Positions 5,171 to 42,884 of a stretch of DNA of 64,000 bases are shown here, piece after piece. This stretch comes from a virus. Location: IMG/VR virus record IMGVR_UViG_3300040801_002290, positions 1-64,000 of that record; one strand, given 5' to 3'. The position numbers and the translations under genes were made by a program. The notes beneath the pieces were generated by a model that worked only from the letters and a program-made list of their open reading frames with translations, searched no databases and was not told the DNA's origin. Within the stretch, counting starts at the first letter, position 1, and each line of letters opens with the position of its first letter.

Positions 5171-5171
5171 A

Positions 5172-7016: not shown

Positions 7017-7021
7017 ACAAA

Positions 7022-7138: not shown

Positions 7139-7155
7139 AGTCCCGCCTTTGTAGT

Positions 7156-7230: not shown

Positions 7231-7234
7231 ATTT

Positions 7235-7309: not shown

Positions 7310-7312
7310 ATA

Positions 7313-7385
7313 TGGAGACCCGTGGCAGAATCGAACTGCCTCTAGTAGTTTTGCAGACTACTTTCTCTCCATGAGAATACGAGTC
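7313..7385 (-). tRNA. tRNA-Cys (GCA)
   Basis: The loop CTGCAAA between GTAGT and ACTAC gives GCA; CCA is encoded. Its first two bases are shared with the TGA stop of the upstream gene. Confidence 0.94.
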
Positions 7386-7587
7386 AGAAGTCCCGAAGAA
7401 CCATTTGAAAGGATTTAGCTACCTGTAGAGGAAGGTACATTTCATCCCCTACGAGTTGATTGTACTCGTTCCTAAGACTCAGAACTACATAATCTGGATT
7501 GTCTGGGTGAGTACGGACACTTAGAGAAAAGTCTCCGTGCCCGTCGTCCCATATAATCTGGTGGTTCTTTACAATGCTCATTTCCAT
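7384..7587 (-). CDS. Small hypothetical protein, 67 residues
   Basis: It starts MEMSIVKNHQIIWDDGHGDF after AAGGAGCAGACT. It looks like a small beta-rich protein with a short C-terminal helix. Function is unknown. The TGA stop overlaps the 5' end of tRNA-Cys, which implies that the mRNA is cut by tRNA processing at the stop codon. Confidence 0.8.
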   Translation of the reverse strand: MEMSIVKNHQIIWDDGHGDFSLSVRTHPDNPDYVVLSLRNEYNQLVGDEMYLPLQVAKSFQMVLRDF

Positions 7588-7608
7588 AGTCTGCTCCTTG
7601 GTTTTAGT

Positions 7609-7684
7609 TGGTATGAGTGGTAGGAGTCGAACCTACGATGCCGCTGTATCAGAGCGGTGCCTTAAACCACTTGGCTACACTCAT
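7609..7684 (-). tRNA. tRNA-Ile (GAU)
   Basis: The stem CCGCT/AGCGG encloses loop CTGATAC (GAT); the acceptor ATGAGTG/CACTCAT is perfect; CCA is encoded. Confidence 0.94.
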
Positions 7685-7699
7685 GCGCCCACATAAAGG

Positions 7700-7730
7700 A
7701 TTATAGCATACTCTTGGTGAGAAGTGTGAG
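7700..7730 (-). promoter_or_regulatory. CTCAT-class promoter before tRNA-Ile(GAU)
   Basis: The minus strand reads CTCACACTTCTCAC, 11 nt, TATAAT. The short leader leads directly into tRNA-Ile. Confidence 0.8.
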
Positions 7731-7731
7731 T

Positions 7732-7941
7732 CTACACACCGTCAAGTTTCTCTAAAGCCCGGAGAATATTAGTCTCTACTTCGTCATCACTCAATTCACC
7801 ATTACCAGCACGGTGAGCATAAGACCAGGAGTCGATTAAGGAAACAATTTCACGAATCCTTTCGTTATTCATAGCTGTCACGCAGTAAGAGATTTTGTGA
7901 AAAACCCTCTCATAAATCCTTAGTTTCTCTTCACAGTTCAT
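7732..7941 (-). CDS. Small helical hypothetical protein, 69 residues
   Basis: MNCEEKLRIYERVFHKISY to LEKLDGV, all helical and charged. The start overlaps the upstream stop (ATGA type). The stop sits one base before the CTCAT promoter. No domain is recognised. Confidence 0.8.
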   Translation of the reverse strand: MNCEEKLRIYERVFHKISYCVTAMNNERIREIVSLIDSWSYAHRAGNGELSDDEVETNILRALEKLDGV

Positions 7942-8216
7942 GGTAGTTGGAACCTCAAATCGGAATTACCAACCAGCTTAATGGTGACTTTTGAGCCATT
8001 AACATCCTTCTCAAAAAACAACTCTTCTGTAGTAACAGAGTACACATGACCGTGGTCGTGTGCCGAAGTGTACTTTGTTTTTCCTATAAGAGTAATCTCT
8101 TCGGTCTCTCCGTTGGGCCACATGATGGTTAGTTTGTCTCCGCTAAAAACCCTTTTGTCTCCCAGATAGTACTCAAGGTGTTCCCAATTATTACGGACTT
8201 TGATGGGTTCAAACAT
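7938..8216 (-). CDS. Hypothetical beta-rich protein
   Basis: Start MFEPIKVRNNWEHLEYYLGDKRVFSGDKL at ATG 8214-8216; an in-frame TTG three codons upstream is the alternative. About 92 residues of alternating strands resemble a small barrel (VTIKLVGNSDLRFQLP at the end). No function is assigned. Confidence 0.75.
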   Translation of the reverse strand: MFEPIKVRNNWEHLEYYLGDKRVFSGDKLTIMWPNGETEEITLIGKTKYTSAHDHGHVYSVTTEELFFEKDVNGSKVTIKLVGNSDLRFQLP

Positions 8217-8231
8217 TTTATCCAACTTTCT

Positions 8232-8351
8232 TTATCTACCGCCGAAAAGTCTCCTAAAAAACTCAATGATTCTTTCCCAGAATGTCATTATTTTTTCCCC
8301 GGAAAACCGGTATCTATCTGAGAACCTAATGGTTTTATCTCCCCACTTCAT
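8232..8351 (-). CDS. Small basic amphipathic peptide, 39 residues
   Basis: ATG 8349-8351 is preceded by GGAGGTAAAAC, a near-perfect ribosome binding site, and ends at TAA 8232-8234. The C-terminus (MTFWERIIEFFRRLFGGR) is an amphipathic, arginine-rich helix, so membrane association is plausible. It lies directly before tRNA-Gln(CUG). Confidence 0.8.
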   Translation of the reverse strand: MKWGDKTIRFSDRYRFSGEKIMTFWERIIEFFRRLFGGR

Positions 8352-8370
8352 GTTTTACCTCCGGGATTTT

Positions 8371-8446
8371 TGGCAGTCCCTCCTCGGTTCGAACGAGGAC
8401 TCTTTCGGTTCAGAGCCGAATGTTTTTCCTATTAAACTAAGGGACT
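8371..8446 (-). tRNA. tRNA-Gln (CUG)
   Basis: The stem TTCGG/CCGAA encloses loop CTCTGAA (CTG); the acceptor AGTCCCT/AGGGACT is perfect; G73 and CCA are encoded. Confidence 0.95.
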
Positions 8447-8458
8447 ACGATGAGGATG

Positions 8459-8650
8459 TTATGCAGAATGACTCTGTTCAAGCAGGGCGGTCAGAGCTAG
8501 GTCCACTGAGTCAAGAATTGAATTAGGTGACTTATCACTCATTGCTCCCGACACGTTAGCCATAGTTCTCAAAAAAGCTTCACTTACAACAACCCCGTTT
8601 TCTGTAACTTCTCCAGTACTACTTAATTCGGCAATAACAAAGTGTCTCAT
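8459..8650 (-). CDS. Small hypothetical protein, 63 residues
   Basis: MRHFVIAELSSTGEVTENG to LLEQSHSA, preceded by AAAGGAGAGC. It follows a CTCAT promoter and ends just upstream of tRNA-Gln. No function is recognised. Confidence 0.8.
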   Translation of the reverse strand: MRHFVIAELSSTGEVTENGVVVSEAFLRTMANVSGAMSDKSPNSILDSVDLALTALLEQSHSA

Positions 8651-8665
8651 GCTCTCCTTTCATAC

Positions 8666-8697
8666 ACAATAAAACGACCTTAGATGAGAATTATGTG
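8666..8697 (-). promoter_or_regulatory. CTCAT-class promoter overlapping tRNA-Leu 3' end
   Basis: The minus strand reads CACATAATTCTCAT, 12 nt, TATTGT. The first half-site starts in the CCA of tRNA-Leu (8696-8698). Confidence 0.7.
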
Positions 8698-8781
8698 GTG
8701 CCTAAGGTGGGATTCGAACCCACACGCCCTTTCGGGCACTGCCCCCTCAAGACAGCGTGTCTACCATTCCACCACTTAGGC
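8696..8781 (-). tRNA. tRNA-Leu (GAG)
   Basis: A class II tRNA with loop TTGAGGG (GAG), a variable arm with a GCCC/GGGC hairpin, a perfect acceptor and encoded CCA. Confidence 0.94.
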
Positions 8782-8786
8782 TTATA

Positions 8787-9470
8787 TTAGAAGCCGAACA
8801 AAACTCCGAAGTTTATGTGAATCCCGTTAAAGGTTGCTCTGGCCGTGCCTTCGGCTATCGGAGTAAAACTCTGAGAAACTACATACTTGCCTTCAAGGGT
8901 TAAGGCAAAGCCCTCAGTTATGTAATACCTAGCCTGAGAAGAAAGCTGGGCTGCGGGTCCAGCAATATAGTATTTGCTTTCCGGAGAAAGGTGAGTTCTG
9001 GTACCGTTTTGAAGCCCGCGAATTTCTGTAGCTGGATTAGGAATAGAAAGCCCGAATCCTGCCCTAGAAACAATGTGAAATACGTCGGTAATTTCGTAAA
9101 CATGCCCTACATTAAATAGAGCAATGTTGTGACCGTCTGAAAGCTCAAAGTGCTGAACAACATTCTCCGGGTCATTACCACTGACGTAATAAGACTTATC
9201 GTGAATCCACTCAATCTCATAAACTATGTTATCGACCCTATTACCCAGTCTAACAGTGTAGTAATTCTCTGTCAACCCTGCCAGACTAGAGAAATTAGAC
9301 CACGGTCGTGTTTCATACCTGGCGTCTGTAACAGAGTAATCCTCAAAACCGGATTGAGAAATCACTAGAGTATTAGGAGCTTTGAAGCTGGTGCCAGTAG
9401 ATACCTCCAAGCTCCAAGCCAAAGAATAAGACACAAAAAGTGAAATTAATAGAACCACTAGTTTTCTCAT
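8787..9470 (-). CDS. Predicted outer-membrane beta-barrel protein
   Basis: The start at 9468-9470 (MRKLVVLLISLFVSYSLAWS) follows AGGAGAAT; a longer frame would run into tRNA-Leu. Residues 1-18 are a signal peptide. The mature part (about 209 residues) alternates polar and aromatic residues and ends NFGVLFGF, with the terminal Phe typical of outer-membrane barrels. It sits between two leucine tRNAs. A role in superinfection exclusion or lysis would fit a phage barrel, but this is inference. Confidence 0.7.
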   Translation of the reverse strand: MRKLVVLLISLFVSYSLAWSLEVSTGTSFKAPNTLVISQSGFEDYSVTDARYETRPWSNFSSLAGLTENYYTVRLGNRVDNIVYEIEWIHDKSYYVSGNDPENVVQHFELSDGHNIALFNVGHVYEITDVFHIVSRAGFGLSIPNPATEIRGLQNGTRTHLSPESKYYIAGPAAQLSSQARYYITEGFALTLEGKYVVSQSFTPIAEGTARATFNGIHINFGVLFGF

Positions 9471-9483
9471 ATATTCTCCTAAT

Positions 9484-9567
9484 TGGTGCCCAGGGTGGGA
9501 TTCGAACCCACAAGCCTTTCGGCACTGCATTTTGAGTGCAGCGTGTATACCGTTCCACCACCTGGGC
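9484..9567 (-). tRNA. tRNA-Leu (CAA)
   Basis: A class II tRNA with stem CTGCA/TGCAG and loop CTCAAAA (CAA); CCA is encoded. The 5' base is shared with the stop codon of the upstream nucleotidyltransferase gene. Confidence 0.95.
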
Positions 9568-10271
9568 TAGTGATTAAGAATAAAGTACTCTGTCAATTCA
9601 GACTTCAATAAGTCAGGAAGGTGAAGCTTATCCTTGTTGTCATTATAGCACTCTTCCAGCTTGGGCACAAAGGACTCTATTTCCTCTTCTACCTGGGGCT
9701 TTACGAAGACCCCGCTTTTAACATTCCTTAAATGTACCTTCAACTCCGGGGTTAAATAAAAGTATTCGCCGGTTTGAAGAATATTGTACAAAGTGTACAT
9801 TCCACGAAGAAGATGTGCTGCGTACTTAGGGTCATAACCCATACGGTTTACCAACTCAGTACGCTCAGGGCTACGAGGCTTATGTCCCACAAGCCTGTCC
9901 TTTTGACTCCTAACATAGCCCATATAGGAACCGGCTACGTTTTGGGTAATCACATAAGGACGAACAGCATCAATCATTCCTTTTACAAAAGACTCTTCTC
10001 TAACCGGGGAATGAAAAACTAGGTCAATAGCATTGAAGTTACCCTTTACCAGCATCACAGCCAGCTTAGCAGCAGTGTGAATAGAGTAGTCGTCTTCCTC
10101 ATGCTGGGAAACGCTCAATAGTCTGTCCTGAAATGGATTAAGGTAGGAAATCCGGTTGTGAAAAACCCCCGTGAAATCCGTGTCGGATTCGGGGGTGTCC
10201 ATACCGTACATTTTACTTCCCGTTACCCAAACCTGTGCGTTGTACTCAATGAAGAATTCTGGAATTTCCAT
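9567..10271 (-). CDS. Nucleotidyltransferase of the polymerase beta superfamily
   Basis: It has 234 residues. GSKMYGMDTPESDTDFTGVF (about residues 18-37) is the GS...DxD signature of polymerase-beta-type nucleotidyltransferases (COG3541-like). These enzymes transfer nucleotides to RNA, protein or small molecules. The rest is helical and lacks a recognisable second domain. Its stop codon touches tRNA-Leu, and it lies amid tRNA genes, so a tRNA 3'-end or repair function is attractive, though CCA ends are already encoded here. A toxin or antibiotic-modifying relative cannot be excluded. Confidence 0.75.
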   Translation of the reverse strand: MEIPEFFIEYNAQVWVTGSKMYGMDTPESDTDFTGVFHNRISYLNPFQDRLLSVSQHEEDDYSIHTAAKLAVMLVKGNFNAIDLVFHSPVREESFVKGMIDAVRPYVITQNVAGSYMGYVRSQKDRLVGHKPRSPERTELVNRMGYDPKYAAHLLRGMYTLYNILQTGEYFYLTPELKVHLRNVKSGVFVKPQVEEEIESFVPKLEECYNDNKDKLHLPDLLKSELTEYFILNH

Positions 10272-10363
10272 CTCAATCTCTTTTCTTTATAAGTTATTCA
10301 GAGTAATGTTTGAATGAGTTCTTATTGACGGCTGACTCTGCCATGTTGGTCTAGACAGGAATT

Positions 10364-10432
10364 TCCTGCCCCAGGATTCGAACCTGGACTATAGCCGTTT
10401 GACCGAAGTATCTCACTCACTGGCTGCTGAAA
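10364..10432 (-). pseudogene. tRNA-like relic
   Basis: The minus strand has a perfect T-arm (CCAGG TTCGAAT CCTGG, 10371-10387) and a variable-loop-like stretch, but I cannot fold a standard anticodon arm, and no 5' acceptor partner or CCA is present. It is probably a decayed tRNA. Confidence 0.35.
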
Positions 10433-10436
10433 ACTT

Positions 10437-10512
10437 TGGTACCGGTGGTGGGATTCGAACCCACACTTTGGCGATTTTAAGTCGCATGACTCTACCATTG
10501 GTCTACACCGGC
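10437..10512 (-). tRNA. Class I tRNA with UAA anticodon
   Basis: The stem GCGA/TCGC encloses loop CTTAAAA (anticodon TAA, leucine codon UUA). The variable loop is only 5 nt, whereas leucine tRNAs normally have a long arm. The acceptor and T-arm are good and CCA is encoded. The amino acid charged is therefore uncertain. Confidence 0.85.
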
Positions 10513-10550
10513 ACGCGCTTACTTAGATAGTATGGAATACTATGTAAAGT

Positions 10551-10635
10551 TGGTGCCGACGACAGGACTTGAACCTGCAACCCCAGAGGGGACTGCGTTC
10601 TAAGCGCAGCGCGTATACCATTCCGCCACGTCGGC
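10551..10635 (-). tRNA. tRNA-Leu (UAG)
   Basis: A class II tRNA with stem CTGCG/CGCAG and loop CTTAGAA (TAG); the acceptor GCCGACG/CGTCGGC is perfect; CCA is encoded. Confidence 0.95.
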
Positions 10636-10926
10636 ATAAATTCGGCTGCCCGTCTGACTAGGACGAAGTGTCGATAAAGCCGCTAAGCAATATCCGAGTC
10701 CAAGGAAATTTCACCAGACCGTAGGTTTAAGCTTCCCTAGAGGCTTTCGGCCTTGAGCCCACCGAAGGCTCAGATAGATAGAGCAGTTTATTCGTCATGC
10801 TCAGGACTAGCCCCAAAACGGGCCTTTTGTATAATGCGGGTTTTGCTGCGCGGCGGGTTACCCGGAAACCGCCAATATGGATACGGAGTCTTTTACTAAA
10901 CCTGGCGCTGCCGTTCCAGGAACTAC
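10636..10926 (-). ncRNA. Long structured leader or unidentified RNA
   Basis: About 290 nt between the promoter at 10927-10958 and tRNA-Leu hold no convincing gene (one 23-codon ATG frame lacks a ribosome binding site). The minus strand can form several successive hairpins, for example AGGC/GCCT around CGAAA, GAGCC/GGGCTC and GGCGG/CCGCC. It may be a processed tRNA leader or a distinct RNA. Confidence 0.4.
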
Positions 10927-10958
10927 ACTATACTGTGTCTCTCTATGAGAGTTATGAG
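10927..10958 (-). promoter_or_regulatory. CTCAT-class promoter
   Basis: The minus strand reads CTCATAACTCTCAT, 12 nt, TATAGT. The upstream gene's TAA stop lies inside the first half-site. Confidence 0.8.
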
Positions 10959-11131
10959 TTGGTGATTCGCCTCAGGTTTGCACTGTTGAGAGGAACAACA
11001 TCTACTCTGCGCCTACGGCTAGTGCGATAGCTATCGGCAATAAGGTTTGCCTGAGGACGACTATCCGCAATAAGGGTGTTAGCCCTGCCGTCACGATACG
11101 ATTCCCAAACTACTACGAGATGCTTATTCAT
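10952..11131 (-). CDS. Small Arg-rich hypothetical protein, 59 residues
   Basis: ATG 11129-11131 follows GAAAGGAAGAAAT; the frame ends at TAA 10952-10954. It begins MNKHLVVVWESYRDGRANTL and carries a run of four Arg in the middle (YRTSRRRRVDVV). Function is unknown. It has an unusually long structured 5' region (about 100 nt) after tRNA-Ala. Confidence 0.75.
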   Translation of the reverse strand: MNKHLVVVWESYRDGRANTLIADSRPQANLIADSYRTSRRRRVDVVPLNSANLRRITNS

Positions 11132-11236
11132 ATTTCTTCCTTTCTAAGGGGAGGGTTTTTGCGCGGAACCCTTAAAACCGCCACTATCCCCGCAACCCGA
11201 ACCTGTCCTCGGTCAAGCGTCTCTCCGCTTTGTCAA

Positions 11237-11311
11237 TGGTGGACAGCCGGGGAATCGAACCCCGAATTCCTGCTTGCAAAACAGGTGTGTTCCCGTTAGC
11301 ACTAGCCGCCC
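11237..11311 (-). tRNA. tRNA-Ala (UGC)
   Basis: The stem CCTGT/GCAGG encloses loop TTTGCAA (TGC); the acceptor has two G-U pairs; CCA is encoded. Confidence 0.93.
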
Positions 11312-11322
11312 GAGCTAGAGTA

Positions 11323-11354
11323 AGTATAGCTTACTCGTTTGTGAGAATGATTAG
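11323..11354 (-). promoter_or_regulatory. CTCAT-class promoter before tRNA-Ala
   Basis: The minus strand reads CTAATCATTCTCAC, 12 nt, TATACT. The TAA of the upstream gene is part of the first half-site. Confidence 0.75.
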
Positions 11355-11488
11355 AACTTGTAGAACTTATGGAAGTCTGGGTATTGACTAGCCGCGAAAT
11401 TCTTCATCCAAGCATCTACCCTGTAACGTTTAGGTAGTGAGTCAAGAATGACAGCCACTTCTGTGATATTAAACAACTTATTCATCAT
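11351..11488 (-). CDS. Small hypothetical protein, 45 residues
   Basis: ATG 11486-11488 follows GAGGAAT and overlaps the end of the upstream gene; TAA is at 11351-11353. It starts MMNKLFNITEVAVILDSLP and ends HKFYKF. No domain is recognised; size and coupling suggest a genuine phage microprotein. Confidence 0.75.
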   Translation of the reverse strand: MMNKLFNITEVAVILDSLPKRYRVDAWMKNFAASQYPDFHKFYKF

Positions 11489-11645
11489 AATTCCTCATTA
11501 ACTCCTTTAGAGCTTCGTTTGGTTCTGGTGGATTCTCTAACATTTCCATGAAGTATTTCCAGTCTACTTCTGAAACTTCCATGATTACAGGGATTAGATT
11601 CTTGAAGGCTTCGATTTCCTCTTCGGTTAGTTTACTCTTTTCCAT
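11478..11645 (-). CDS. Small acidic hypothetical protein, 55 residues
   Basis: The start MEKSKLTEEEIEAFKNLIP at 11643-11645 lies within the last codons of the upstream gene, suggesting coupled translation. The protein is helical and acidic. No function is recognised. Confidence 0.75.
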   Translation of the reverse strand: MEKSKLTEEEIEAFKNLIPVIMEVSEVDWKYFMEMLENPPEPNEALKELMRNYDE

Positions 11646-11877
11646 AGTCAAGGTACTCAAAGTACACACTCAGTGCGTAAAGTAAACTTTCTCCGTTGTC
11701 GCCATCGCCCCCAACTTCCCAACCCAGAGAGTCTCCCATTTCCTGGTAATCATAATCCATAAGAAACTCCATAAGCTTTACTGCTTTGGTGTGATGCTCC
11801 GCGCCGTCGTCATACCGTCTCTCGGCACTGAATTGACGTTCTGGAAGTGTACGCTTTACGTCATTAAACAAGGTCAT
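11632..11877 (-). CDS. Acidic hypothetical protein, 81 residues
   Basis: MTLFNDVKRTLPERQFSAERRYDDGAEHHTKAVKLMEFL to FEYLDYGKE. It is mostly helical and rich in Asp, Glu and Tyr. It begins about 20 nt after the CCA end of tRNA-Ser and is likely expressed from the same transcript. No family is recognised. Confidence 0.8.
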   Translation of the reverse strand: MTLFNDVKRTLPERQFSAERRYDDGAEHHTKAVKLMEFLMDYDYQEMGDSLGWEVGGDGDNGESLLYALSVYFEYLDYGKE

Positions 11878-11897
11878 GTTGACCCCTTTCAGTTAAT

Positions 11898-11983
11898 TGG
11901 CGGAAGGTGAGGGAATCGAACCCCCAAGGCTTTTACACCCAGCCGCTTTCAAGGCGGTGTCCTCGTCCATTCGGGCACCTTCC
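11898..11983 (-). tRNA. tRNA-Ser (UGA)
   Basis: A class II tRNA with CCGC/GCGG closing loop CTTGAAA (TGA), acceptor GGAAGGT/ACCTTCC, G73 and encoded CCA. Confidence 0.93.
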
Positions 11984-11984
11984 G

Positions 11985-12057
11985 TGCTTTGCCTGGTCCC
12001 GAATCGAACGGGACACTTTCCCCAAAATGGGTTGTGCTTCATCATTTACACCACAGG
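11985..12057 (-). pseudogene. Degenerate tRNA-like sequence
   Basis: The T-arm (TCCCG TTCGATT CGGGA) and a D-arm-like GTG/CAC are clear, and a five-pair acceptor (GCCTG/CAGGC) can form. The anticodon region (CCCATTTTGGGG) does not make a normal stem and CCA is absent. It may derive from a lysine or proline tRNA. Confidence 0.4.
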
Positions 12058-12065
12058 CTAATTGC

Positions 12066-12140
12066 TGGTGACCCCGGTAGGAATCGAACCTACATCTAGA
12101 CTTTAGGAGAGTCCTATTCTGTCCATTGAACTACGAGGTC
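12066..12140 (-). tRNA. tRNA-Arg (CCU)
   Basis: The stem GGACT/AGTCT encloses loop CTCCTAA (CCT); the acceptor GACCTCG/CGGGGTC has one wobble pair; CCA is encoded. Confidence 0.93.
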
Positions 12141-12369
12141 ATGTACGGTTTATGGGTGACCGAAAACCCCGCCAAGCCTATGACCCTCGTTGCGGTGAGG
12201 GGATGCTTTATGGTGTGGCATCTAAACCCTATGATTAACCCTATCAGTGGGACAGGGGCTCTTATGGTTAGCCCTGCGGAACCTGTGCAACCCTAGGGTT
12301 TGGGCAAACCCCGATGCCCTAATTCAGTGCCGTTGCCTCACCGAATCCGTTTTTGAAGGACGGTACCTT
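12141..12369 (-). other. 229-nt gene-free spacer inside the tRNA array
   Basis: No supported ORF. On the minus strand TAGGGTT occurs three times, and GGTTTGGGCAAACC (12297-12310) is a hairpin. A 23-codon ATG frame is present without good support. It may be a processed spacer or RNA. Confidence 0.4.
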
Positions 12370-12444
12370 TGGTCCCCCCGGCAGGAATCGAACCCGCTTT
12401 GAACCGGTTAAAAGCCGGGAGCCTATCCATTCGGCCTCAGGGGG
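12370..12444 (-). tRNA. tRNA-Lys (UUU)
   Basis: The loop CTTTTAA gives TTT; the acceptor CCCCCTG/CGGGGGG pairs fully with one wobble; CCA is encoded. Confidence 0.93.
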
Positions 12445-12447
12445 ATG

Positions 12448-12524
12448 TGGAGGCCCGTGAAGGATTCGAACCCTCGACCAGCCGGGTAGAAACCGGCGGC
12501 TCTAGTCCACTGAGCTAACGGGCC
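12448..12524 (-). tRNA. tRNA-Arg (UCU)
   Basis: The stem GCCGG/CCGGC encloses loop TTTCTAC (TCT); the acceptor GGCCCGT/ACGGGCC is perfect; CCA is encoded. Confidence 0.94.
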
Positions 12525-12541
12525 TTGCGCTTACAGGGGTA

Positions 12542-12573
12542 AGCATACTACTTGGTAACATGAGAAGAATGAG
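12542..12573 (-). promoter_or_regulatory. CTCAT-class promoter before tRNA-Arg/Lys
   Basis: The minus strand reads CTCATTCTTCTCAT, 12 nt, TATGCT, immediately after the stop of the gene at 12574. Confidence 0.8.
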
Positions 12574-13188
12574 TTACTCTAACGGTATTGAATTTCTGTG
12601 AATTCTATTAATAATAATTCCAAAGTCCCAAAAATTTGTGTCATGGCTGGGAGTGATATAAAATTCCCCACCATTAGTAACAAAAGTCTGCATTGTAAAC
12701 GCAGGAACGGTTAAACAAAAGGTGTGTTCAATGCCTTGACCCCTTACCAGTGCTGACGTGTTTTGCCAAACAATATTACTACCAGAAACTCCTGGGTCAC
12801 CAATATCTAACTCGGAGAGAATATAAGCTCCCTGTACCGCTGCGGAATCACACCTAAACTGAAATCTTATTATATAAAAATCCCCAACATTACTTGGCAT
12901 AAATTTGTTTGTTGAGGGGTTCCACCAACACCCAGACGCATCCGGAGGCAAGTACTCTGTTATATTACTAAGTAGGCTATTGTTAGTAACCTTGGTTCTC
13001 GTACCCGCAGTTACTGGTAGTTTAGATAAAGATGTATACTGATTGTCAAAGTGATTACACCAGCCGGTTCCTGTTACTCCGACAATGCTCGCTACTAGGT
13101 TTCGCATATCAGAAGCGGAAATTTCACCGGTAGTGTTATCAGAAAAATCAGAGTATAGCTGTTGTATCGTACGTTTGGTGGCTGGCAT
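12574..13188 (-). CDS. Probable virion/tail accessory protein
   Basis: It has 204 residues from ATG 13186-13188 (MPATKRTIQQLYSDF). The N-terminal TGEISASDMRNLVASI pattern is common at the start of phage tail-fibre and decoration proteins. The C-terminal 130 residues are a beta-rich domain (FYIIRFQFRCDS, HTFCLTVPAFTM, FWDFGIIINRI), similar in feel to C1q/TNF-like or jelly-roll tips. A GTG start three codons upstream is possible. It overlaps the upstream 65-residue gene closely. A virion role is inference from these patterns. Confidence 0.6.
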   Translation of the reverse strand: MPATKRTIQQLYSDFSDNTTGEISASDMRNLVASIVGVTGTGWCNHFDNQYTSLSKLPVTAGTRTKVTNNSLLSNITEYLPPDASGCWWNPSTNKFMPSNVGDFYIIRFQFRCDSAAVQGAYILSELDIGDPGVSGSNIVWQNTSALVRGQGIEHTFCLTVPAFTMQTFVTNGGEFYITPSHDTNFWDFGIIINRIHRNSIPLE

Positions 13189-13193
13189 TAGTA

Positions 13194-13391
13194 TCACCCC
13201 ACGTCAAAGGAATCATCAAAAGCAGAGCTAAAAGCGGGACCTTCCTTTTCTACGCAGCATTCCTCTATCATCTCTGCCATAGCTAAAATGGCGTGAAATA
13301 AAGTCATGTCCGAGGGTAGGCCGGGGTTGGATATCGCTCTTAGCGAAGCTTCATTGTCTCTAATAATCTTTTTCAGAGACTTGATGTCCAT
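13194..13391 (-). CDS. Small helical protein, 65 residues
   Basis: MDIKSLKKIIRDNEASLRAI to FDDSFDVG; helical with a double Cys (EECCVEKE). Directly upstream of the probable virion protein, so it may be its partner or chaperone. Function is unknown. Confidence 0.75.
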   Translation of the reverse strand: MDIKSLKKIIRDNEASLRAISNPGLPSDMTLFHAILAMAEMIEECCVEKEGPAFSSAFDDSFDVG

Positions 13392-13422
13392 AACTAGAGA
13401 CTACTACTAAAACCTTAATAAG

Positions 13423-13728
13423 TCAAGATTCCTTTATGGTGTAATCAGAGGGATTTTTCCTTCTACTAACATAGCCTTTAGCCTCTTGAAATACATCATA
13501 AACCTTAACGACTCTTCCATGCTTATTAATTACCAGATAAGTCTCCTCATCCAGAGGAAGGGAAACGACATAATACCCATCGACTAAAGACTCTTGCCTA
13601 TTCCTGGACTCAGTGTACGTAGCTGCTAATTCAGAGTCGGAAAAAACCTTTACTGGAATAGCAGCAACATCCTCTATATACCAGTCGTCCTCGTAGTGGT
13701 ACCCCTCCTTCATCACAATGTATAACAT
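13423..13728 (-). CDS. Hypothetical protein, 101 residues
   Basis: MLYIVMKEGYHYEDDWYIEDVAAIPVKVF, beta-rich with a YVSRRKNPSDYTI tail. No signal peptide or known domain. It begins about 18 nt after the CCA end of tRNA-Asn and probably lies on the tRNA transcript. Confidence 0.8.
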   Translation of the reverse strand: MLYIVMKEGYHYEDDWYIEDVAAIPVKVFSDSELAATYTESRNRQESLVDGYYVVSLPLDEETYLVINKHGRVVKVYDVFQEAKGYVSRRKNPSDYTIKES

Positions 13729-13745
13729 GTTTACTCACTTTCTAT

Positions 13746-13821
13746 TGGCTGACCCCCAGGGAATCGAACCCTGCTAGACCGCGTTAACAGCGCGGCGCAG
13801 TCACCAGATTGCGAGAGGTCA
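13746..13821 (-). tRNA. tRNA-Asn (GUU), copy 2
   Basis: The stem CCGCG/CGCGG encloses loop CTGTTAA (GTT); G73 and CCA are encoded. The body differs from copy 1 at 7235-7309. Confidence 0.94.
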
Positions 13822-13854
13822 ATACGCCTAGTTTTTAAGGTTCTAGGAAACCTG

Positions 13855-13931
13855 TGGTGCCCCCTCCAGGATTTGAACCTGGGATTTCCCGCTTAAGAGG
13901 CGGTTGCCTTAGACCGCTTGGCTAAGGAGGC
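13855..13931 (-). tRNA. tRNA-Lys (CUU)
   Basis: The stem ACCGC/GCGGG (outer mismatch) encloses loop CTCTTAA (CTT); CCA is encoded. Confidence 0.93.
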
Positions 13932-13934
13932 ATG

Positions 13935-14009
13935 TGGCGGTCCATAGGAGAATCGAACTCCTGTCCCTCGGCTGACAACCGAGCGTCTTAACCACTAAAC
14001 GAATGGACC
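13935..14009 (-). tRNA. tRNA-Asp (GUC)
   Basis: The stem CTCGG/CCGAG encloses loop TTGTCAG (GTC); the acceptor GGTCCAT/ATGGACC is perfect; G73 and CCA are encoded. Confidence 0.95.
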
Positions 14010-14027
14010 GTGCCGCTTACAGAAAAC

Positions 14028-14059
14028 ATACTACACCGTCTCTATATGAGAAGTGTGTG
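14028..14059 (-). promoter_or_regulatory. CTCAT-class promoter overlapping tRNA-Thr 3' end
   Basis: The minus strand reads CACACACTTCTCAT, 12 nt, TAGTAT, starting in the CCA of tRNA-Thr (14058-14060) and reading into tRNA-Asp. Confidence 0.7.
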
Positions 14060-14132
14060 GAGCCCCCGAGGAGAATCGAACTCCTATTATGTCCTTACCA
14101 AGGACACGTAATAGCCTTTATACTACAGGGGC
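14058..14132 (-). tRNA. tRNA-Thr (GGU)
   Basis: The stem TGTCC/GGACA encloses loop TTGGTAA (GGT); the acceptor GCCCCTG/CGGGGGC has one wobble pair; CCA is encoded. Confidence 0.94.
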
Positions 14133-14133
14133 A

Positions 14134-14210
14134 TGGAGCGCCAGGAAGGATTCGAACCCTCGATAACCGCGTTCGAAGCGCGGTGCCTTAGTCCACTAGA
14201 CGACTGGCGC
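14134..14210 (-). tRNA. tRNA-Arg (UCG)
   Basis: The stem CCGCG/CGCGG encloses loop CTTCGAA (TCG); the acceptor GCGCCAG/CTGGCGC is perfect; CCA is encoded. It is the first tRNA after the sigma-70 promoter at 14283-14311. Confidence 0.95.
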
Positions 14211-25442: not shown

Positions 25443-26083
25443 ACCTTAAGATTATTCTTTATCAGCCTTGAGTCAAACCAGTGAGAAGTGATTCCAGCAG
25501 TAAAGCCTGGATTAACGAACTTATACGCCTCGGAATAATTCTTCACGTTGCGAAAAATGAACCCCTCATACTCCTCGGAGTAAAAGGGTGTGTGATTGTA
25601 GGAGAGCAGAAAATTCTCGACATTGCTGGTCGAAGTTACTAGAGGAGTGAAACACAAACCTACCTCGGTAGCTCTCAGTTTAGCCTCAAAATAGGGAAGA
25701 AACGTCTCATGGCCAACATATATATCATACACTACAAAAAGACTTTCCAACTTAGTATAGTGAATGGAGTGTTTAGCGTATAGCCACTCCCCAAATATGA
25801 CGGAGTTCTTAGGGAGGTTTGTGAAAAGCGCCGAAAAAACTTCGTGCATCGAGTACGCCCAGTTTTTAGCCGCATCCCACTGAGGGTGTGGCCTTTTATT
25901 TTCGAGATAAGAGCCTCTGTTTTGTAGTTTAAGGACACCAGAGTCAGGCATGGAAATTCCCAGGTTGGCTCCGTCCAACTTCTCAAAGACATAGAAGTCC
26001 CCTTCCGGAAAACCCATCGCAGAGATGTCGTCTTCCGAAAAGTTACTTCCTGGTAAATGAGGTACTCTAGGATACTTTTTCAT
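25439..26083 (-). CDS. Rnl2-type RNA ligase
   Basis: It has 214 residues. Nucleotidyltransferase motif I is FEKLDGANLGI (lysine AMP site at about residue 34); motif III is LFVVYDIYVG; motif IV is EGFIFR; motif V is YKFVN near the C-terminus. This order matches T4 Rnl2-like ligases without the C-terminal domain. It seals nicks in RNA duplexes or joins broken RNAs. It overlaps the phosphoesterase gene upstream and lies in a region with RNase P RNA and RtcB, which supports an RNA-repair role. Confidence 0.85.
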   Translation of the reverse strand: MKKYPRVPHLPGSNFSEDDISAMGFPEGDFYVFEKLDGANLGISMPDSGVLKLQNRGSYLENKRPHPQWDAAKNWAYSMHEVFSALFTNLPKNSVIFGEWLYAKHSIHYTKLESLFVVYDIYVGHETFLPYFEAKLRATEVGLCFTPLVTSTSNVENFLLSYNHTPFYSEEYEGFIFRNVKNYSEAYKFVNPGFTAGITSHWFDSRLIKNNLKV

Positions 26084-26729
26084 AAAGTGTGTGCGTTCTG
26101 CCTACCTTGTCTGGTAAGCAAATGAAGTTGACTCCATTATACTCAAAGTTATGATACACATGATAATGACCAAACACCCAAGTCCTAACATTGGGGAGCC
26201 TGTTCATAAGTAAGTCTAGGTAAAGACTAGTACGAGTCCTAATAATTGGTTTATGAGCAGCCAAAACAAGGTGTGAGACTCTAGCTGGGGCGTCATGCGA
26301 GATAACTGTCTCTACCTGTTCGAACTTACCTTCCAGGCTTCTAAAGATATCTTCCCACTCCTGCTCATTTAGCTCCTCATTATACCACCAGTTTAACCCA
26401 GGGGTTCTCATCTGGTGGTCTATCGACCATGCTCCACCAACGTAAAGGGTATTACCCTCCAAAGTACCGTCAGGAATCCATTGAATGCTGCCGCTGGTAA
26501 ACTCTTTACAGACCTCTAGATTATCGTGGTTTCCACGAATAAATCTTATTAGCGGCTTTACATTCTCTCGCGCCAACACCCGAGCCTCATCGTCTCTATG
26601 AAAACCCAAGCCAAAATCACCCACGATGATAATCTCATCGTAGTCTGCGTGAACTTTTCTTAGGTGGGGAATTAGACTAAAATTCCCGTGTAGGTCACCG
26701 ACTAGCAGCTTCTTCATAAGTCTTTTCAT
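26067..26729 (-). CDS. Calcineurin-like metallophosphoesterase
   Basis: It has 220 residues, start after AGGAGAAAG. The metal-binding motifs GDLHGN, GDFG, GNHD, SHDAP and GHYH occur in order, as in the metallophosphoesterase superfamily. Substrates in this family include proteins, nucleic-acid ends and 2',3'-cyclic nucleotides. Overlap with the RNA ligase gene suggests end-healing (phosphate removal) before ligation, by analogy with other RNA-repair operons; this is inference. Confidence 0.85.
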   Translation of the reverse strand: MKRLMKKLLVGDLHGNFSLIPHLRKVHADYDEIIIVGDFGLGFHRDDEARVLARENVKPLIRFIRGNHDNLEVCKEFTSGSIQWIPDGTLEGNTLYVGGAWSIDHQMRTPGLNWWYNEELNEQEWEDIFRSLEGKFEQVETVISHDAPARVSHLVLAAHKPIIRTRTSLYLDLLMNRLPNVRTWVFGHYHVYHNFEYNGVNFICLPDKVGRTHTLYEKVS

Positions 26730-27059: not shown

Positions 27060-27075
27060 GTTTATCCTTAATTGG

Positions 27076-27396
27076 TTTAGGCAAGCTGTACGCGGGATTC
27101 TGTATTATCTTGTCATCTATCTTGGCTAGCCATTACAGTTTCGCTCTTTGCGGGAATTACTCCCTTGCTGACGGGTAAGGATTGCCTAGCCGTGGGTTAT
27201 TAGTCCCACGCTGGGGTGCTTTTATCACCCCGCTTTCACCTACCGCTAACGCGGTCACTATTCGCTGTTGCTCTTGCTCGCGGATTACTCCGGGCGGGTG
27301 TTACCCGCTACCCTTTTGCCAAAAATGGGACACATGTCTCAAGTTTGGGTCAGTCCCGACGTTCCTCACCGTAGCGCGACAAGTCACTTACCTAAA
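27076..27396 (-). ncRNA. rnpB: RNase P RNA (bacterial type)
   Basis: On the minus strand the conserved bacterial elements occur in order: GAGGAACGTCGGGAC (CR-I), GAGCAACAGCGAATAG (CR-II), AGGTGAAAGCGGGGTGATAA followed by AGCACCCC (CR-III), GGCTAGGCAATCC...CAGCAAG (CR-IV) and ACAGAATCCCGCGTACAGC (CR-V). The ends TTTAGGTAAG and CTTGCCTAAA pair as helix P1. About 321 nt, somewhat shorter than the 377-nt E. coli RNA. It is the catalytic subunit that trims tRNA 5' ends; the protein subunit would come from the host. Its 5' end overlaps the last codons of the upstream small gene. Confidence 0.95.
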
Positions 27397-27542: not shown

Positions 27543-27592
27543 ATTGTATACCTCCCAGCCCAAGTATGGTAGGGAGCCTCCAACATGACCAT

Positions 27593-27620
27593 CATATAGC
27601 ATATCAGAAGGGAGTGTCAA
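27593..27620 (-). promoter_or_regulatory. Sigma-70 promoter for the membrane gene and rnpB
   Basis: TTGACA (27615-27620), 16 nt, TATATG (27593-27598) on the minus strand. It overlaps the stop of the 174-residue gene. Confidence 0.75.
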
Positions 27621-29064: not shown

Positions 29065-30324
29065 TTACCCCTTCAACACCATTACTGGTCTAAGACGCAT
29101 TTCTACCTCAGCTACCTCTGCGTCTACTAGAGACTGAATTACCTCGTCAACGTCCTTGTAAGCCCCGTGAGACTCATCAAGTGGAACATTTTCGAAGTTG
29201 CCAATCACACCAGCGTCTTCGAATTCCATGTTTACAAGCTCCTGGTCAAGCTGCTCCTTGGCCTTTCCACGGCTCAATACCCTTCCTGCACCGTGAGAAA
29301 CAGACTCTCCAAGTTTCTCTGACTTTACTCCTGGTCGTAGAACATAAGAACCGGTAGCCATGCTGCCAGGAATAAGTAGAGGAATACCGTCGAATTCGTA
29401 GGCTGGTGTAGCCCCTTTACGGCCCACGTATTTACCGTTACGCTTTTCTATGAAGTTATGTGGTATGTGGCCAAGGTATTCTCCACCAACTTCCTCAAAA
29501 ACAATCTGGTGAATCACATGGTGGTTATAGCTAGCCCATTCAAGCATTGCTAGTTGGAACATGTAATACATTCTCCCAATGAAGGACTCCGCTGGCACAA
29601 ACAATAAACCGTTCATTGGAGTCCCATTCCACTTCTTCAATTCCTCAGCAATAGCTTCATCGAACCACTTTGCCATAGCTGCTCCAATACCCCGAGAGCC
29701 GAAGTGTGTCATTAGGTAGTTTTCCCCGTTTTCAGCTTCTTGAATTTCAACGAAGTGGTTTCCCCCTCCGATTGTCGCAACCTGATGAAGCATTGCGTCT
29801 GTCATTTTGCTTTCTAGAAGCTTAACGAGAGCTTTGTACTCTTCTGTAGAAGACTCCTGCCATAGGGCTGGATATGAGTTAATCCATGACTTAGCTGGTC
29901 TCATTTCCCCGCGAATAATCAACTTGAAGGTCTCCATGGAGATTTTCCAGTCAGACAGCCCGCGACCAACGCCAATTCTTTCCCCCATCTTTTCAAGCAA
30001 GTCGCGGCGACCACTCCACTGTGACATGTTGTCTCTACCAAGCTTAGAAAGAGCTACAGAGCAAGCTGGGTCAGGACCAACAACGTCTGGGTAAAGATGA
30101 GTTTCTGACTCCACTACGGAGCCAATTGCGAAGCCATAGCCTGTGTGAGCGTCAGGAGTAATCGTTAGAGACTTAACCCCTGGCAACTCCATGGTGTTTC
30201 GAATCTGCGCCAATGCATCATTCTCTAAAGAATAGAACAATTGGTCAGACATCAAGAATGTCGCCCACACCTTACCGTGGCGCATCTTGTACACATTTCC
30301 TGTTTTGAATGGCTCAAATATCAT
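29065..30324 (-). CDS. rtcB: RtcB-type RNA ligase
   Basis: It has 419 residues from ATG 30322-30324 after GGAGAGT. Signature segments: DAHTGYGFAIG, GPDPACSVAL (usual GVDIGCG; the metal-binding Asp and Cys are kept), GGGNHFVEI, HFGSRGIG and the guanylylated histidine loop VSHGAGRVLSR. RtcB joins 2',3'-cyclic-phosphate ends to 5'-OH ends, the termini left by anticodon nucleases. In a phage with 31 tRNAs this points to tRNA repair. It shares an operon with an upstream 148-residue gene. Confidence 0.95.
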   Translation of the reverse strand: MIFEPFKTGNVYKMRHGKVWATFLMSDQLFYSLENDALAQIRNTMELPGVKSLTITPDAHTGYGFAIGSVVESETHLYPDVVGPDPACSVALSKLGRDNMSQWSGRRDLLEKMGERIGVGRGLSDWKISMETFKLIIRGEMRPAKSWINSYPALWQESSTEEYKALVKLLESKMTDAMLHQVATIGGGNHFVEIQEAENGENYLMTHFGSRGIGAAMAKWFDEAIAEELKKWNGTPMNGLLFVPAESFIGRMYYMFQLAMLEWASYNHHVIHQIVFEEVGGEYLGHIPHNFIEKRNGKYVGRKGATPAYEFDGIPLLIPGSMATGSYVLRPGVKSEKLGESVSHGAGRVLSRGKAKEQLDQELVNMEFEDAGVIGNFENVPLDESHGAYKDVDEVIQSLVDAEVAEVEMRLRPVMVLKG

Positions 30325-30328
30325 GGTA

Positions 30329-30775
30329 TTACTCTCCAATTACTTCTATAGAGTCCTTTATGTTTGGACGGTAATAATCACGAAAAGTGGGTTCTCCAGG
30401 CTTTCTTCCGTCTCTAATTACGTGAATGTTTGTACCTTTTACGTAAGCAAACTCACAAACAAGAGGGTTGCCGAACCATCTTTTAATTATTAACCTTTTA
30501 CCCTTGTACTTCTCAAAAAAGCTCCTAGCTACTCTCATATCTCTCTTAAAGCTTTTAGAAACTCTTACCAGAGAGTTGTATTTGCGTCTGAGCAGTGCAA
30601 CCGCATCCACCTTTTCACTTTCTGGAAGACTGGACATAACATAACTAACGGCTTCCTCATGCAGGGCTTGTAGAGAACGCCCTATAACCCTAATATCTCC
30701 TCTATATTGAACTCCCATGAACCTAAATTCAGAATATCTAGACAAATATTTATGAAACCTCTTGTCACTAGTCAT
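30329..30775 (-). CDS. Basic hypothetical protein
   Basis: It has 148 residues, Arg/Lys/Tyr-rich (MTSDKRFHKYLSRYSEFRF; RRKYNSLVRVSKSFKRDMRVARSFF), with a C-terminal beta segment (KGTNIHVIRDGRKPGEP). Nucleic-acid binding is likely. It ends 4 nt before the rtcB ATG and may be its partner. No family is recognised. Confidence 0.78.
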   Translation of the reverse strand: MTSDKRFHKYLSRYSEFRFMGVQYRGDIRVIGRSLQALHEEAVSYVMSSLPESEKVDAVALLRRKYNSLVRVSKSFKRDMRVARSFFEKYKGKRLIIKRWFGNPLVCEFAYVKGTNIHVIRDGRKPGEPTFRDYYRPNIKDSIEVIGE

Positions 30776-32695: not shown

Positions 32696-34243
32696 TTAGT
32701 AACTTTCGATGTACTTGACTAGGCTGCCCTCGGAAAGCATGGACATAAGCTTGAGTGTGGAGTCTGACCAACCTCCGATGGAGTAAAACTTGCCCCCAAC
32801 CCTGGACATCTGAGCCTCGTAAGCCGCTAGGTTTACGGAGTAAGCAGTGCCAGTGTAGCCCTTAAGGGCATGGAAAATCTGGTCATGAATTTGCATGTCG
32901 GAGAAAACAACGATGTTGTCGAAGTCCCTAACATTAACCTTAGAGAAGGCCACACTCATGTTGGTGCCGTATCCAAGCCTGTTGCGTAGGTTGCTATCCT
33001 TTAGTCGTGCCTGGTTAGCAAGAATACTGTTATTCTTGTTAAGTTCAACACGCTCTGCGGTAGTACCGAAGCAAACAACTTCTCCGTTTTGTGAGCGGTG
33101 CATAGCAGCCCCAAAAAGAGTACCAATATCAACGTAGGAAATCTCAGACTTGTCGCTAACAGTCGCGTCCATGGACCCAGACGTGTCAACAACGATTAGA
33201 GTTCTACCTTCGAAGGTTGGTAGGTTTCCGATAGAAGCGTCAAGGGCTTCGGATAGGGCGTTAGAGATTAATGCATAGCGGTCGTGGTCTCTAAACCCAG
33301 TAGAAGCTTCGCTCCAGTAATATCTACTTTCCGAACCAGAAATAGCTCGATGAGCAGAAAGGAACCGGAAAGGTAGCTGCCTAGACTTAGCTACTGCCTC
33401 AGGGTCAGCTAGCCTGTTAGCGACTAGATTCCAAAAGTCCTTGTCGGAAGCAGGAACCTTCTCAAAAAAGTTACGTAGGTTACGAAGTAGGGCCATGTAA
33501 CCCATGTTGTCCACAACGGACTCCCAGGACGCACCAGCACTACGGCTGCGTTCCCAACTAATTTCCCCGCTATCCTCAGAACCATTTACGGCCTTTAGAA
33601 TAACTGGTAGCAGAGCCCGAGCTTCGTCGGGAAGCTTTTCCCAAGCTGCGGAAAGGCTGCCTTCGCTCTTCCAAAGAAGAACAAAATCGAACAGGGCACG
33701 CTTTTCAGCAGTAGACTCAGCCCTTGCGTGAGTAATACGAATTGCCTTGGCAAGGTTCCAGTCTCGGCTAAAGTTGTTGTAACGAAGTGCGGCACGCTCG
33801 GTTAGACGGTCCTGTAGAATAGCGCGACCGAATCTAACAGCAGAAGGAATTACCTTCTTATTGTCGGAAAAAGAAGCTACGGTGGCTAGATAGTCACCAA
33901 TTTCATCACCACGGAAGAACACGTCACGAATTACACGACCATCCTGTGGCTGGCCATGCTCTAGCGTGTAGAAGCCCATAAGAGCGGCAGGCGTAGTACG
34001 CATGTTAAACTCTTGTCGAGCCACACGAGCTAGCTGGGAAACGAAGTTCTTAGGTGCCTTGGCGACAAGCGCCTGCATACGAGAAACTGTGTCGCTAGAC
34101 CTCTCGTAAAAGCTATCACTAAGGAAGCTAGAAAGAGCAAGCATGGCAAGCTCTTCGCGGACCTCAGCCTTACGGCCTACTCCACCTTCGTGTGTAACCA
34201 TCTGAGTTACGCGCCTTGGACGTGCTGTATTTAGTACACTCAT
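32696..34243 (-). CDS. TROVE-domain Ro60/Rsr-like RNA-binding protein
   Basis: It has 515 residues. The N-terminal about 330 residues are helical repeats typical of the TROVE module (NTARPRRVTQMVTHEGG at the start; FVSQLARVARQEFNMRTTPAALMGF). The C-terminal von Willebrand A domain has a MIDAS site, VVDTSGSM, at about residue 345. Ro60 rings bind Y RNAs outside and damaged or misfolded RNA ends in the central hole. In Deinococcus and Salmonella, Ro homologues work in RNA decay and rRNA/tRNA handling, often with Rtc genes nearby. A candidate Y RNA lies directly upstream. A GGAGAAAGATT ribosome binding site is present. Confidence 0.93.
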   Translation of the reverse strand: MSVLNTARPRRVTQMVTHEGGVGRKAEVREELAMLALSSFLSDSFYERSSDTVSRMQALVAKAPKNFVSQLARVARQEFNMRTTPAALMGFYTLEHGQPQDGRVIRDVFFRGDEIGDYLATVASFSDNKKVIPSAVRFGRAILQDRLTERAALRYNNFSRDWNLAKAIRITHARAESTAEKRALFDFVLLWKSEGSLSAAWEKLPDEARALLPVILKAVNGSEDSGEISWERSRSAGASWESVVDNMGYMALLRNLRNFFEKVPASDKDFWNLVANRLADPEAVAKSRQLPFRFLSAHRAISGSESRYYWSEASTGFRDHDRYALISNALSEALDASIGNLPTFEGRTLIVVDTSGSMDATVSDKSEISYVDIGTLFGAAMHRSQNGEVVCFGTTAERVELNKNNSILANQARLKDSNLRNRLGYGTNMSVAFSKVNVRDFDNIVVFSDMQIHDQIFHALKGYTGTAYSVNLAAYEAQMSRVGGKFYSIGGWSDSTLKLMSMLSEGSLVKYIESY

Positions 34244-40952: not shown

Positions 40953-42884
40953 CTATAAGTCATTGAATGGAAGAACGTCAGAAAGGCGCAGTGTTTTTCC
41001 GGACTCTTTTAGTGTTCTCCAGGAGCCTAAGCCTGTGGTCATAGAATTTAGAGACTCCTGATAGGCTGCCTTATCGTCTTCTGTGGCAACTTTATTCTTT
41101 ATTCTTTGTTCTACATTGTTAGTTGCAGAAGTTCCAGCACCCAAAACATCTCTGTAGGGCCACTCATACTTCAAGATTCTAACCATTCTAGCTAGAGCAT
41201 CGCTAATATCTTTTGTCTGCCCCTCTATGTGGTCTATCTTAGGGGGATTTTTCGTTCTATCTTCTCTAAGGTTTCTTAGCTCCTCATAAACAATAGGATG
41301 CCATGGGAAGTCTATTCCACCGTTAGATTCTTTGGTACCTTTTCCGTTAGAGGGAGGAGCTTCACCAAAAATAGCATCCCTAAGAGCGGTATAGTCTTTG
41401 TAGTCTACAATACTTCTGTCATAGACTATCACGTTCTTATACGTTTTTGAAATCCACTGTGTTAGAGAAATGCTATTCCAACCATCGAAGGAAAAGATTC
41501 TTATATTATAACCCATTCTTTCCTTAAGTTTCTTTATTAGATTCTCAACCGCAACCATCTGCACTTGTCCCTCTTCGAACATTCTGCCCGTAAATCTAAA
41601 GGCAAAGTCGATAACGGGTCTTACGTACTTTCTTCCATCCTCGTCGGTTATCATCTCTCGGTGACCAAGACATATTCCATAACCGTCTCCACCATTGGCT
41701 TCGCTTCCAAGGGCTGGGTCTCCGGTTAGAACGTAATAGAAGTTTGGGTTACCGTACTCTTTAATGGGAATGTCATAAGGGTCTAAAACCTGTAGGACAT
41801 CGTTGGAGTCTTTATATTGAGATTCAGACATGGGGGCGGCTCTCCACTCATCGTGGGATTCCTTATTCCACCATAATTCGCTTCCCACCGGCTGGGGGTC
41901 ATAGGGAAGTGGCCAGTCAATAATCCACGGCCTAGTCACATTCATGGCATTCTTTATTCTTCTCTGGTCTTTTAGCCAAGAGTCAACGAAGGAGCCAGAA
42001 TCCTCAGAGCCATACATACAGGCAGCCTTCTCTGGGTTTTCGTTGTAGTAGGTTTGGAAGTCGTCTTTGGACAGAATTGGGTGAAATTCCCAAGACGCAT
42101 AACGTTTTGCGTAAACGTGGTCAAGCCCTCTAGCTTTACTGTAATACTCCATAATCTTACCTGAGGAACCTACATACCTCCGGTAAGAGATTACCATAAT
42201 CTTTTCTTTACCACGAAATCTGGACTGGGAGGAAGTACGAAGAGTGTTTACAATCTTCTCTACTCCGTGGAATTCAACATCATCAACCTCGTCTGCAAGA
42301 GCCATTAAAACGTCGTATCCTTCGATACCACCGGCCCTACTGTTTGCAGAGATAATATGAATATTCTGAGGGAAAGTGATGCTGCTTGCCTGAATGTCAT
42401 TAACTGGGTCAAAGCCAAAGTTCTTAAAAGCTTTGTTACCAGAGGCTCGGATAATATTCTTTAGTGGTTCGAAGAAGTTATCCTGAGCCTGCTTAGCGTT
42501 AATAGCAACGTTGATGAATGTTAAAGCCTTAGCCCGGTTATGGTTAAGGTATTTGTGAGCATCATACATGCATAGAAGCTTATATGCTGCGTAAAGGAAA
42601 AGAATACCGGAAGACCAGTTCTTTCCCCCACCCTTACCTACGAAAAGGACAAAGAAGTTTATTCCATTTTCGAAGTCAGAAGCTTTCTCAATGAATTCCT
42701 TCTGAGCCTCAGACATTCCCCACATCCCCTGATTTAGATAATCCGGGCTGTATACAAATGTCTCAAGGTCAACTGGCTCTATTCTATAAACCTCACCAGA
42801 GGCTTCCTTTACGGCGTGTTCTCCACGACGCATAAGATTACCCCACTCGGAAGTCGCCTTAAAAGCCTCCTTCTTCTTAGGCAT
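40953..42884 (-). CDS. terL: Terminase large subunit
   Basis: It has 643 residues. Walker A is FVGKGGGKNWSSG, Walker B is ALADEVDD, and the C-terminal RNase H-like nuclease shows TGDPALG and FDGWNS acidic residues. Length and order fit TerL, the motor that packages DNA and cuts concatemers. Its ATG overlaps the stop of the upstream small helix-turn-helix gene. Confidence 0.92.
   Translation of the reverse strand: MPKKKEAFKATSEWGNLMRRGEHAVKEASGEVYRIEPVDLETFVYSPDYLNQGMWGMSEAQKEFIEKASDFENGINFFVLFVGKGGGKNWSSGILFLYAAYKLLCMYDAHKYLNHNRAKALTFINVAINAKQAQDNFFEPLKNIIRASGNKAFKNFGFDPVNDIQASSITFPQNIHIISANSRAGGIEGYDVLMALADEVDDVEFHGVEKIVNTLRTSSQSRFRGKEKIMVISYRRYVGSSGKIMEYYSKARGLDHVYAKRYASWEFHPILSKDDFQTYYNENPEKAACMYGSEDSGSFVDSWLKDQRRIKNAMNVTRPWIIDWPLPYDPQPVGSELWWNKESHDEWRAAPMSESQYKDSNDVLQVLDPYDIPIKEYGNPNFYYVLTGDPALGSEANGGDGYGICLGHREMITDEDGRKYVRPVIDFAFRFTGRMFEEGQVQMVAVENLIKKLKERMGYNIRIFSFDGWNSISLTQWISKTYKNVIVYDRSIVDYKDYTALRDAIFGEAPPSNGKGTKESNGGIDFPWHPIVYEELRNLREDRTKNPPKIDHIEGQTKDISDALARMVRILKYEWPYRDVLGAGTSATNNVEQRIKNKVATEDDKAAYQESLNSMTTGLGSWRTLKESGKTLRLSDVLPFNDL

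Follow-up and report, generated by a model that had tools for sequence, protein, structure and literature searches.

The 194,021-bp virus record analysed here contains a gene for a class A RNase P RNA. The window, the 64,000-nt stretch of DNA that was analysed, comprises bases 1-64000 of this record, and the rnpB-like gene of 323 nt is located on its minus strand at 27073..27395. The Rfam model of bacterial class A RNase P RNA (RF00010, release 15) aligns to 27395..27073(-) over its whole length (1-367), with 126 bits (gathering score 100) and an E-value of 3.5e-38; it has no other match in the window. The record is a tailed phage, with phage-family matches for terminase, RIIA, RIIB, UvsX, a DnaB-type helicase, the clamp loader and ribonucleotide reductase. 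A mere host fragment is excluded by RIIA/RIIB, UvsX and ribonucleotide reductase. The gene belongs to a true tailed phage and specifies a class A RNase P RNA.

RNase P, a textbook ribozyme, is regarded as a cellular housekeeping enzyme. The original prediction had placed a phage-encoded RNase P RNA at 27076-27396, and the full-model match bears it out. The locus is correct, while the ends are displaced by 1-3 bases. The prediction also called such an RNA very unusual in a phage. This does not hold: related RNAs are common in uncultured large phages, although they are absent from the isolated phages searched.

The RNA and its catalytic helix

Helices P1, P2, P3, P4 and P5, further model helices and the conserved regions CR-I to CR-V are all present and in order. 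As predicted, the five regions are accompanied on the minus strand by a P1 helix of 10 bp, a count that includes two G-U pairs. In the model alignment P1 is formed by the strands UUAGGUAAGU (27386..27395, minus) and GCUUGCCUAA (27077..27086, minus); its pairing is kept in a related phage, G056, with several pairs changed. The CR-I strand of the catalytic helix P4, ACG[U]CGGGA (27354..27362, minus), pairs fully with the CR-V strand UCCCGCGU (27090..27097, minus). All eight P4 pairs form around the bulged U69 (27359, minus). CR-IV, AGAUAGAUG (27114..27122, minus), has the same letters in G056. Two conserved regions are off-consensus, with CR-I reading GAGGAACGUCGGGAC and CR-V reading ACAGAAUCCCGCGUA. 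Three of the eight P4 pairs differ from both the consensus and G056, and all three changes are compensated.

The window RNA resembles the bacterial class A form (rnpB, M1 RNA; RF00010) in its full-length match, CR-I to CR-V, P1-P4 and the bulged U69. Major differences can also be observed: it is a phage gene without rnpA, three P4 pairs are replaced, P12 is short, and the short P15 hairpin (GGGA-GUAAU-UCCC) does not contain the GGU motif of L15. In class A RNAs this motif is common, though not universal, and pairs with the tRNA 3' RCCA. Since it is also missing in cyanobacteria and some CPR bacteria (PMC8172020), it does not strictly define the class. Its loss as a reflection of CCA-less tRNA genes is ruled out, as all 31 tRNA genes of the window encode CCA. 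Substrate recognition must therefore differ from that in E. coli.

Reduced RNase P RNAs of CPR bacteria offer a second comparison: they too are divergent and missed at normal cut-offs, and lack helices such as P12 as well as the UGG motif (PMC8172020). However, those are essential cellular genes (PMC8172020), whereas the viral RNAs are viral genes that covary in P4 itself.

Genomic neighbourhood and a related phage

The predicted phage-typical surroundings are confirmed by phage genes on both sides of the RNA. A small ORF upstream (27384-27620, minus) overlaps the RNA by 12 nt, as had been noted. A site resembling the predicted sigma-70-like promoter is also present (TTGACA-18-TATGAT, 27591..27620, minus), a consensus match only, at 11 of 12 positions. 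However, it lies before or at the start of the ORF and ~196 nt upstream of the RNA, so that a transcript starting there would have to be processed to give the RNA 5' end, unless a second promoter is used. Downstream, the neighbour of the RNA is an RNA ligase gene (PF09414, 25439..26083, minus, E 1.3e-20), overlapped by a gene for a calcineurin-like phosphoesterase with a homologue in G056 (26067..26729, minus, E 3.1e-10). RtcB RNA ligase (29065..30339, minus; PF01139, E 3.4e-66) is syntenic in G056, and the Ro60/TROVE RNA-binding protein (32696..34243, minus; PF05731, E 3.9e-17) has a 48% identical homologue there. Together the RNA ligase, the overlapping phosphoesterase, RtcB and Ro60 make up an RNA-maintenance neighbourhood at 25439-34243. 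The window also contains a second RNA ligase (46300-47376) and a macro-domain protein (35963-36535).

Between Ro60 and its upstream gene, at ~34300-34400(-), a stretch is kept in G056 (TTAGCAGCCAG.GTTTTCGGTTACTTC). It is a candidate Y RNA partner of Ro60; in Rfam, window positions 25000-36000 give no match other than the RNase P RNA. A collagen-like repeat protein is encoded at 30877-31788, and a similar gene is found just upstream of the RNA in G056 (L242 ~3720-4200). A LAGLIDADG gene adjoins the uninterrupted rtcB of the window, and the rtcB of G056 is split by a group I intron (RF00028; L241 16087-16290, L242 87-290).

The terminase large subunit (40953..42884, minus; phrog_9, E 3.8e-5) is 42% identical to that of Thermus phage phiYS40. 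By terminase, phiYS40 and TMA are the closest isolated relatives (42% identity); in phiYS40, unlike in the window phage, neither RF00010 nor R1, a covariance model built from the short viral class described below, detects an RNase P RNA. A terminase scan of IMG/VR found one relative, G056, with 201,951 bp and 70% identity over the best segment. G056 carries an RNase P RNA (173 bits with RF00010), a tmRNA and more than 20 tRNA genes. The two phages share one neighbourhood, consisting of RIIB, RIIA, tmRNA, SNF2 helicase, RtcB, RNase P RNA and Ro60. The arrangement differs in that G056 has the RNA on the opposite side of RtcB and an inverted Ro60 gene.

The RNA is conserved in this relative and has evolved in a structure-preserving manner. 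The two RNAs agree in 198 of 281 consensus columns. Sixty-five model pairs form in both, of which 42 are identical, 1 shows a one-sided change and 22 show double changes. P4 was counted separately, as the RF00010 model does not pair it: 8/8 pairs form in both RNAs and 3 are doubly changed, bringing the compensated double changes to 25. The covariation in relatives that had been proposed as a check is thus found for both P1 and P4, and the covariance score, the other proposed check, exceeds the Rfam class A threshold. The comparison of the two sequences is strong evidence that selection acts on the structure of the RNA. The excess of double over one-sided changes (22 vs 1), together with 3/8 in P4, indicates that the RNA is maintained as an RNase P RNA. 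Because G056 keeps the canonical P4, an origin of the three changed pairs within the phage lineage is most likely.

RNase P RNAs in other large phages

We searched IMG/VR with a pattern of CR-IV/CR-V letters in which the P4 partner positions were left free; this pattern sees only RNAs that keep those letters. It matched at least 118 stretches. RF00010 detected an RNase P RNA at E <= 0.001 in 51 of 80 records among the matches listed, with 13 above the cut-off. Host DNA or the edge of a prophage may explain some high-scoring records (e.g. G038, G043). A recognisable terminase was present in 8 of the 50 records checked, all of one family, while the window phage and G056 have a different one. A looser pattern gave mostly chance matches and was rejected; its records served as the non-carrier comparison set. 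A CR-V pattern specific to the window RNA had no match in IMG/VR.

P4 is re-spelled in the viral RNAs. Among the matches listed, 85 non-redundant viral RNAs with CR-I have A-U (39), G-C (41) or C-G (5) at pair 67-359 and G-C (36), U-G (28), C-G (19) or U-A (2) at pair 68-358. In these RNAs 336 of 340 cells are paired, against a mean of 209 after shuffling, and none of 5000 shuffles reaches 336. In contrast, all 102 cellular genes that this pattern retrieved have A-U at 67-359 and G-C at 68-358 (Fisher p 2e-26), a near-invariance that holds for the sampled genomes. The catalytic bulge is invariant: base 69, left free in the pattern, is U in 102/102 viral RNAs among the matches listed and in 101/101 cellular RNAs. 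The viral RNAs are also shorter, with a median CR-I to CR-V span of 194 vs 296 in the cellular ones.

A short viral class (~190-230 nt) was analysed separately. For 16 aligned RNAs, RNAalifold recovered P1, P3, P4 with the bulge, P5 and other helices unaided. Compensatory changes occur in 30 of 42 pairs. Pairing holds in 95% of the cells, compared with 71% after shuffling, and is lost when the partners are shifted by one base. We applied R1 to six accessions that we take to be huge phages of Al-Shayeb et al. 2020. Five are positive (LR756511, LR745206, LR756501, LR756502 and LR756508; E 1e-22 to 1e-30), and R1 has no match in LR756504. LR756503, equal in length to LR756501, was searched with RF00010 only, and LR756500 was outside the search. 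In LR745206, RF00010 is blank even at E <= 1, although P4 pairs along its whole length; most of its pairs are replaced. Divergent RNAs of ~220 nt with a rebuilt P4 are found at L375 1561-1779 and in LR756511, LR756501, LR756502 and LR756508. The huge phages (PMC7162821) resemble the window phage in being large, tRNA-rich and positive for RNase P RNA by R1, but their form is ~220 nt and missed by RF00010, whereas the window form is full-length. The main text of the huge-phage paper has no mention of RNase P (PMC7162821).

R1 has no match in eight isolated phages, and no such RNA was found in the tRNA-rich isolated phage KVP40. A blastn search of annotated phages with the window RNA and five other viral RNAs found no annotated phage RNase P RNA, a result that leaves out matches in 'Acinetobacter phage MD-2021a'. 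Three further candidates were rejected: MT835553 contains an ordinary, bacterial-like RNA of 288 bits on an unverified scaffold, the match in Agrobacterium phage Atu_ph04 is due to chance, and a Salmonella chromosome-like record is bacterial. There is no earlier report of a phage RNase P RNA in the literature searched, with preprints and most subscription papers outside it. The RNA is a common, recurrent trait of uncultured large phages that is apparently unreported.

tRNA arrays, likely protein partner and proposed function

ARAGORN detects 31 tRNA genes in the window (223..14210, minus), all of them encoding CCA. The predicted number is correct, but the genes are not nearby: although part of the same genome, they lie away from the RNA, the closest at a distance of ~12.9 kb, unlike in most viral copies. 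Neighbouring tRNA genes are separated by 10 nt or less in 10 of 30 gaps, many of them 1-4 nt. With gaps this tight and CCA encoded, these tRNAs would be expected to mature through 5' trimming by RNase P. The phage tmRNA (20035..20417, minus; RF00023, 149 bits), conserved in G056, is a likely RNase P substrate as well. Its tag is predicted by ARAGORN as DDNVEMLPGFMLGASYNPQALAA.

Viral RNase P RNAs co-occur with tRNA arrays. Among the matches listed, the nearest tRNA gene lies at a median gap of 3 nt (ends approximate), and 71 of 72 share the strand of the RNA. A tRNA gene is within 500 nt of 64/85 viral RNAs but only 2/102 cellular genes, with ~41/85 expected from chance placement since the viral loci are tRNA-rich. 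Ten or more tRNAs are present in 34 of 35 carriers vs 1 of 14 non-carriers (p 7e-10, among the matches listed), an association partly confounded because carriers are also the larger contigs. Nine of the 35 carrier records also have a tmRNA above the cut-off, while the 14 non-carriers have none, again among the matches listed. RtcB was rejected as a general companion (6/35 carriers). The protein subunit RnpA (PF00825) is detectable in none of 42 viral records, window phage and G056 included, in a search that recovered it in 10 of 14 control genomes. As no RnpA is found in the phage record, the host protein is the likely partner, and the window RNA probably needs it.

Our best inference is that the RNA processes the phage's own tRNA precursors. 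We consider it likely that phage RNA and host RnpA form a hybrid RNase P that matures the phage tRNAs and tmRNA. The transcript would fold into the class A ribozyme core and bind host RnpA, and the resulting enzyme would cut the 5' leaders off tRNA and tmRNA precursors. Maturation could then continue even if the host rnpB RNA were outnumbered, in decay or under attack. Theta ribozymes adjoining phage tRNAs provide a parallel, being phage-encoded catalytic RNAs with a proposed role in tRNA maturation (PMC10879173). They are self-cleaving and act in cis on the 3' trailer (PMC10879173), whereas RNase P cuts 5' leaders in trans. The tRNA-rich isolated phages in which the RNA was not found, such as KVP40, count against the proposal, as host RNase P evidently suffices there. 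The ~13 kb between the window RNA and the nearest tRNA gene and the missing GGU motif count against it as well.

The RNA could instead cut phage-specific substrates that host RNase P handles poorly, such as mRNAs, unusual leaders or tRNA-like RNAs. An L15 without GGU next to 31/31 CCA-encoding tRNAs is consistent with this, as is the presence of RtcB, two RNA ligases, a phosphoesterase and Ro60 in the region. Yet no candidate substrate was identified, and what carriers generally share is tRNA arrays and not RNA-repair genes, making altered specificity unlikely. It is rather improbable that the RNA is a decoy that sequesters host RnpA or tRNA precursors and blocks host tRNA maturation rather than catalysing it. 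RnpA would be limiting, and the RNA does come without a gene for its protein partner. A decoy, however, need not keep P4, the bulged U69 and CR-IV/V, all of which are kept with compensation; the RNA genes sit inside the phages' own tRNA clusters, and a block of RnpA would hurt the 31 phage tRNAs too. That the class A form is full-length and close to the bacterial type might be explained by a host rnpB that was captured recently and does not function, or by a chimeric assembly. We regard this as very improbable given the phage genes flanking the RNA on both sides and the same neighbourhood in a phage with a 70% identical terminase, and it is contradicted by the 25 compensated double changes between the two RNAs.

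Beyond the hybrid RNase P proposed here, we tentatively raise a broader scenario that we think has a modest chance of being right. The viral RNAs may constitute a separate, long-evolving lineage in large phages, freed from the cellular constraint on P4 letters, that replaces host RNase P or runs beside it during infection. For the ~200-nt forms in tRNA arrays, host RnpA may matter little or not at all, or an unrecognised phage protein may take its place.

As a recurrent phage gene, the RNA would add tRNA 5' maturation to the functions that large phages bring along. The small forms may represent minimal natural RNase P ribozymes. The letters of the catalytic helix P4 hardly vary in the bacteria sampled, but viruses have rewritten them; the viral RNAs constitute a natural mutagenesis of this helix, with three pair types at 67-359, four at 68-358 and a constant U69. 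Since the pairs vary while U69 never changes, the catalytic need for a helix with a bulge can be separated from what cells merely conserve.
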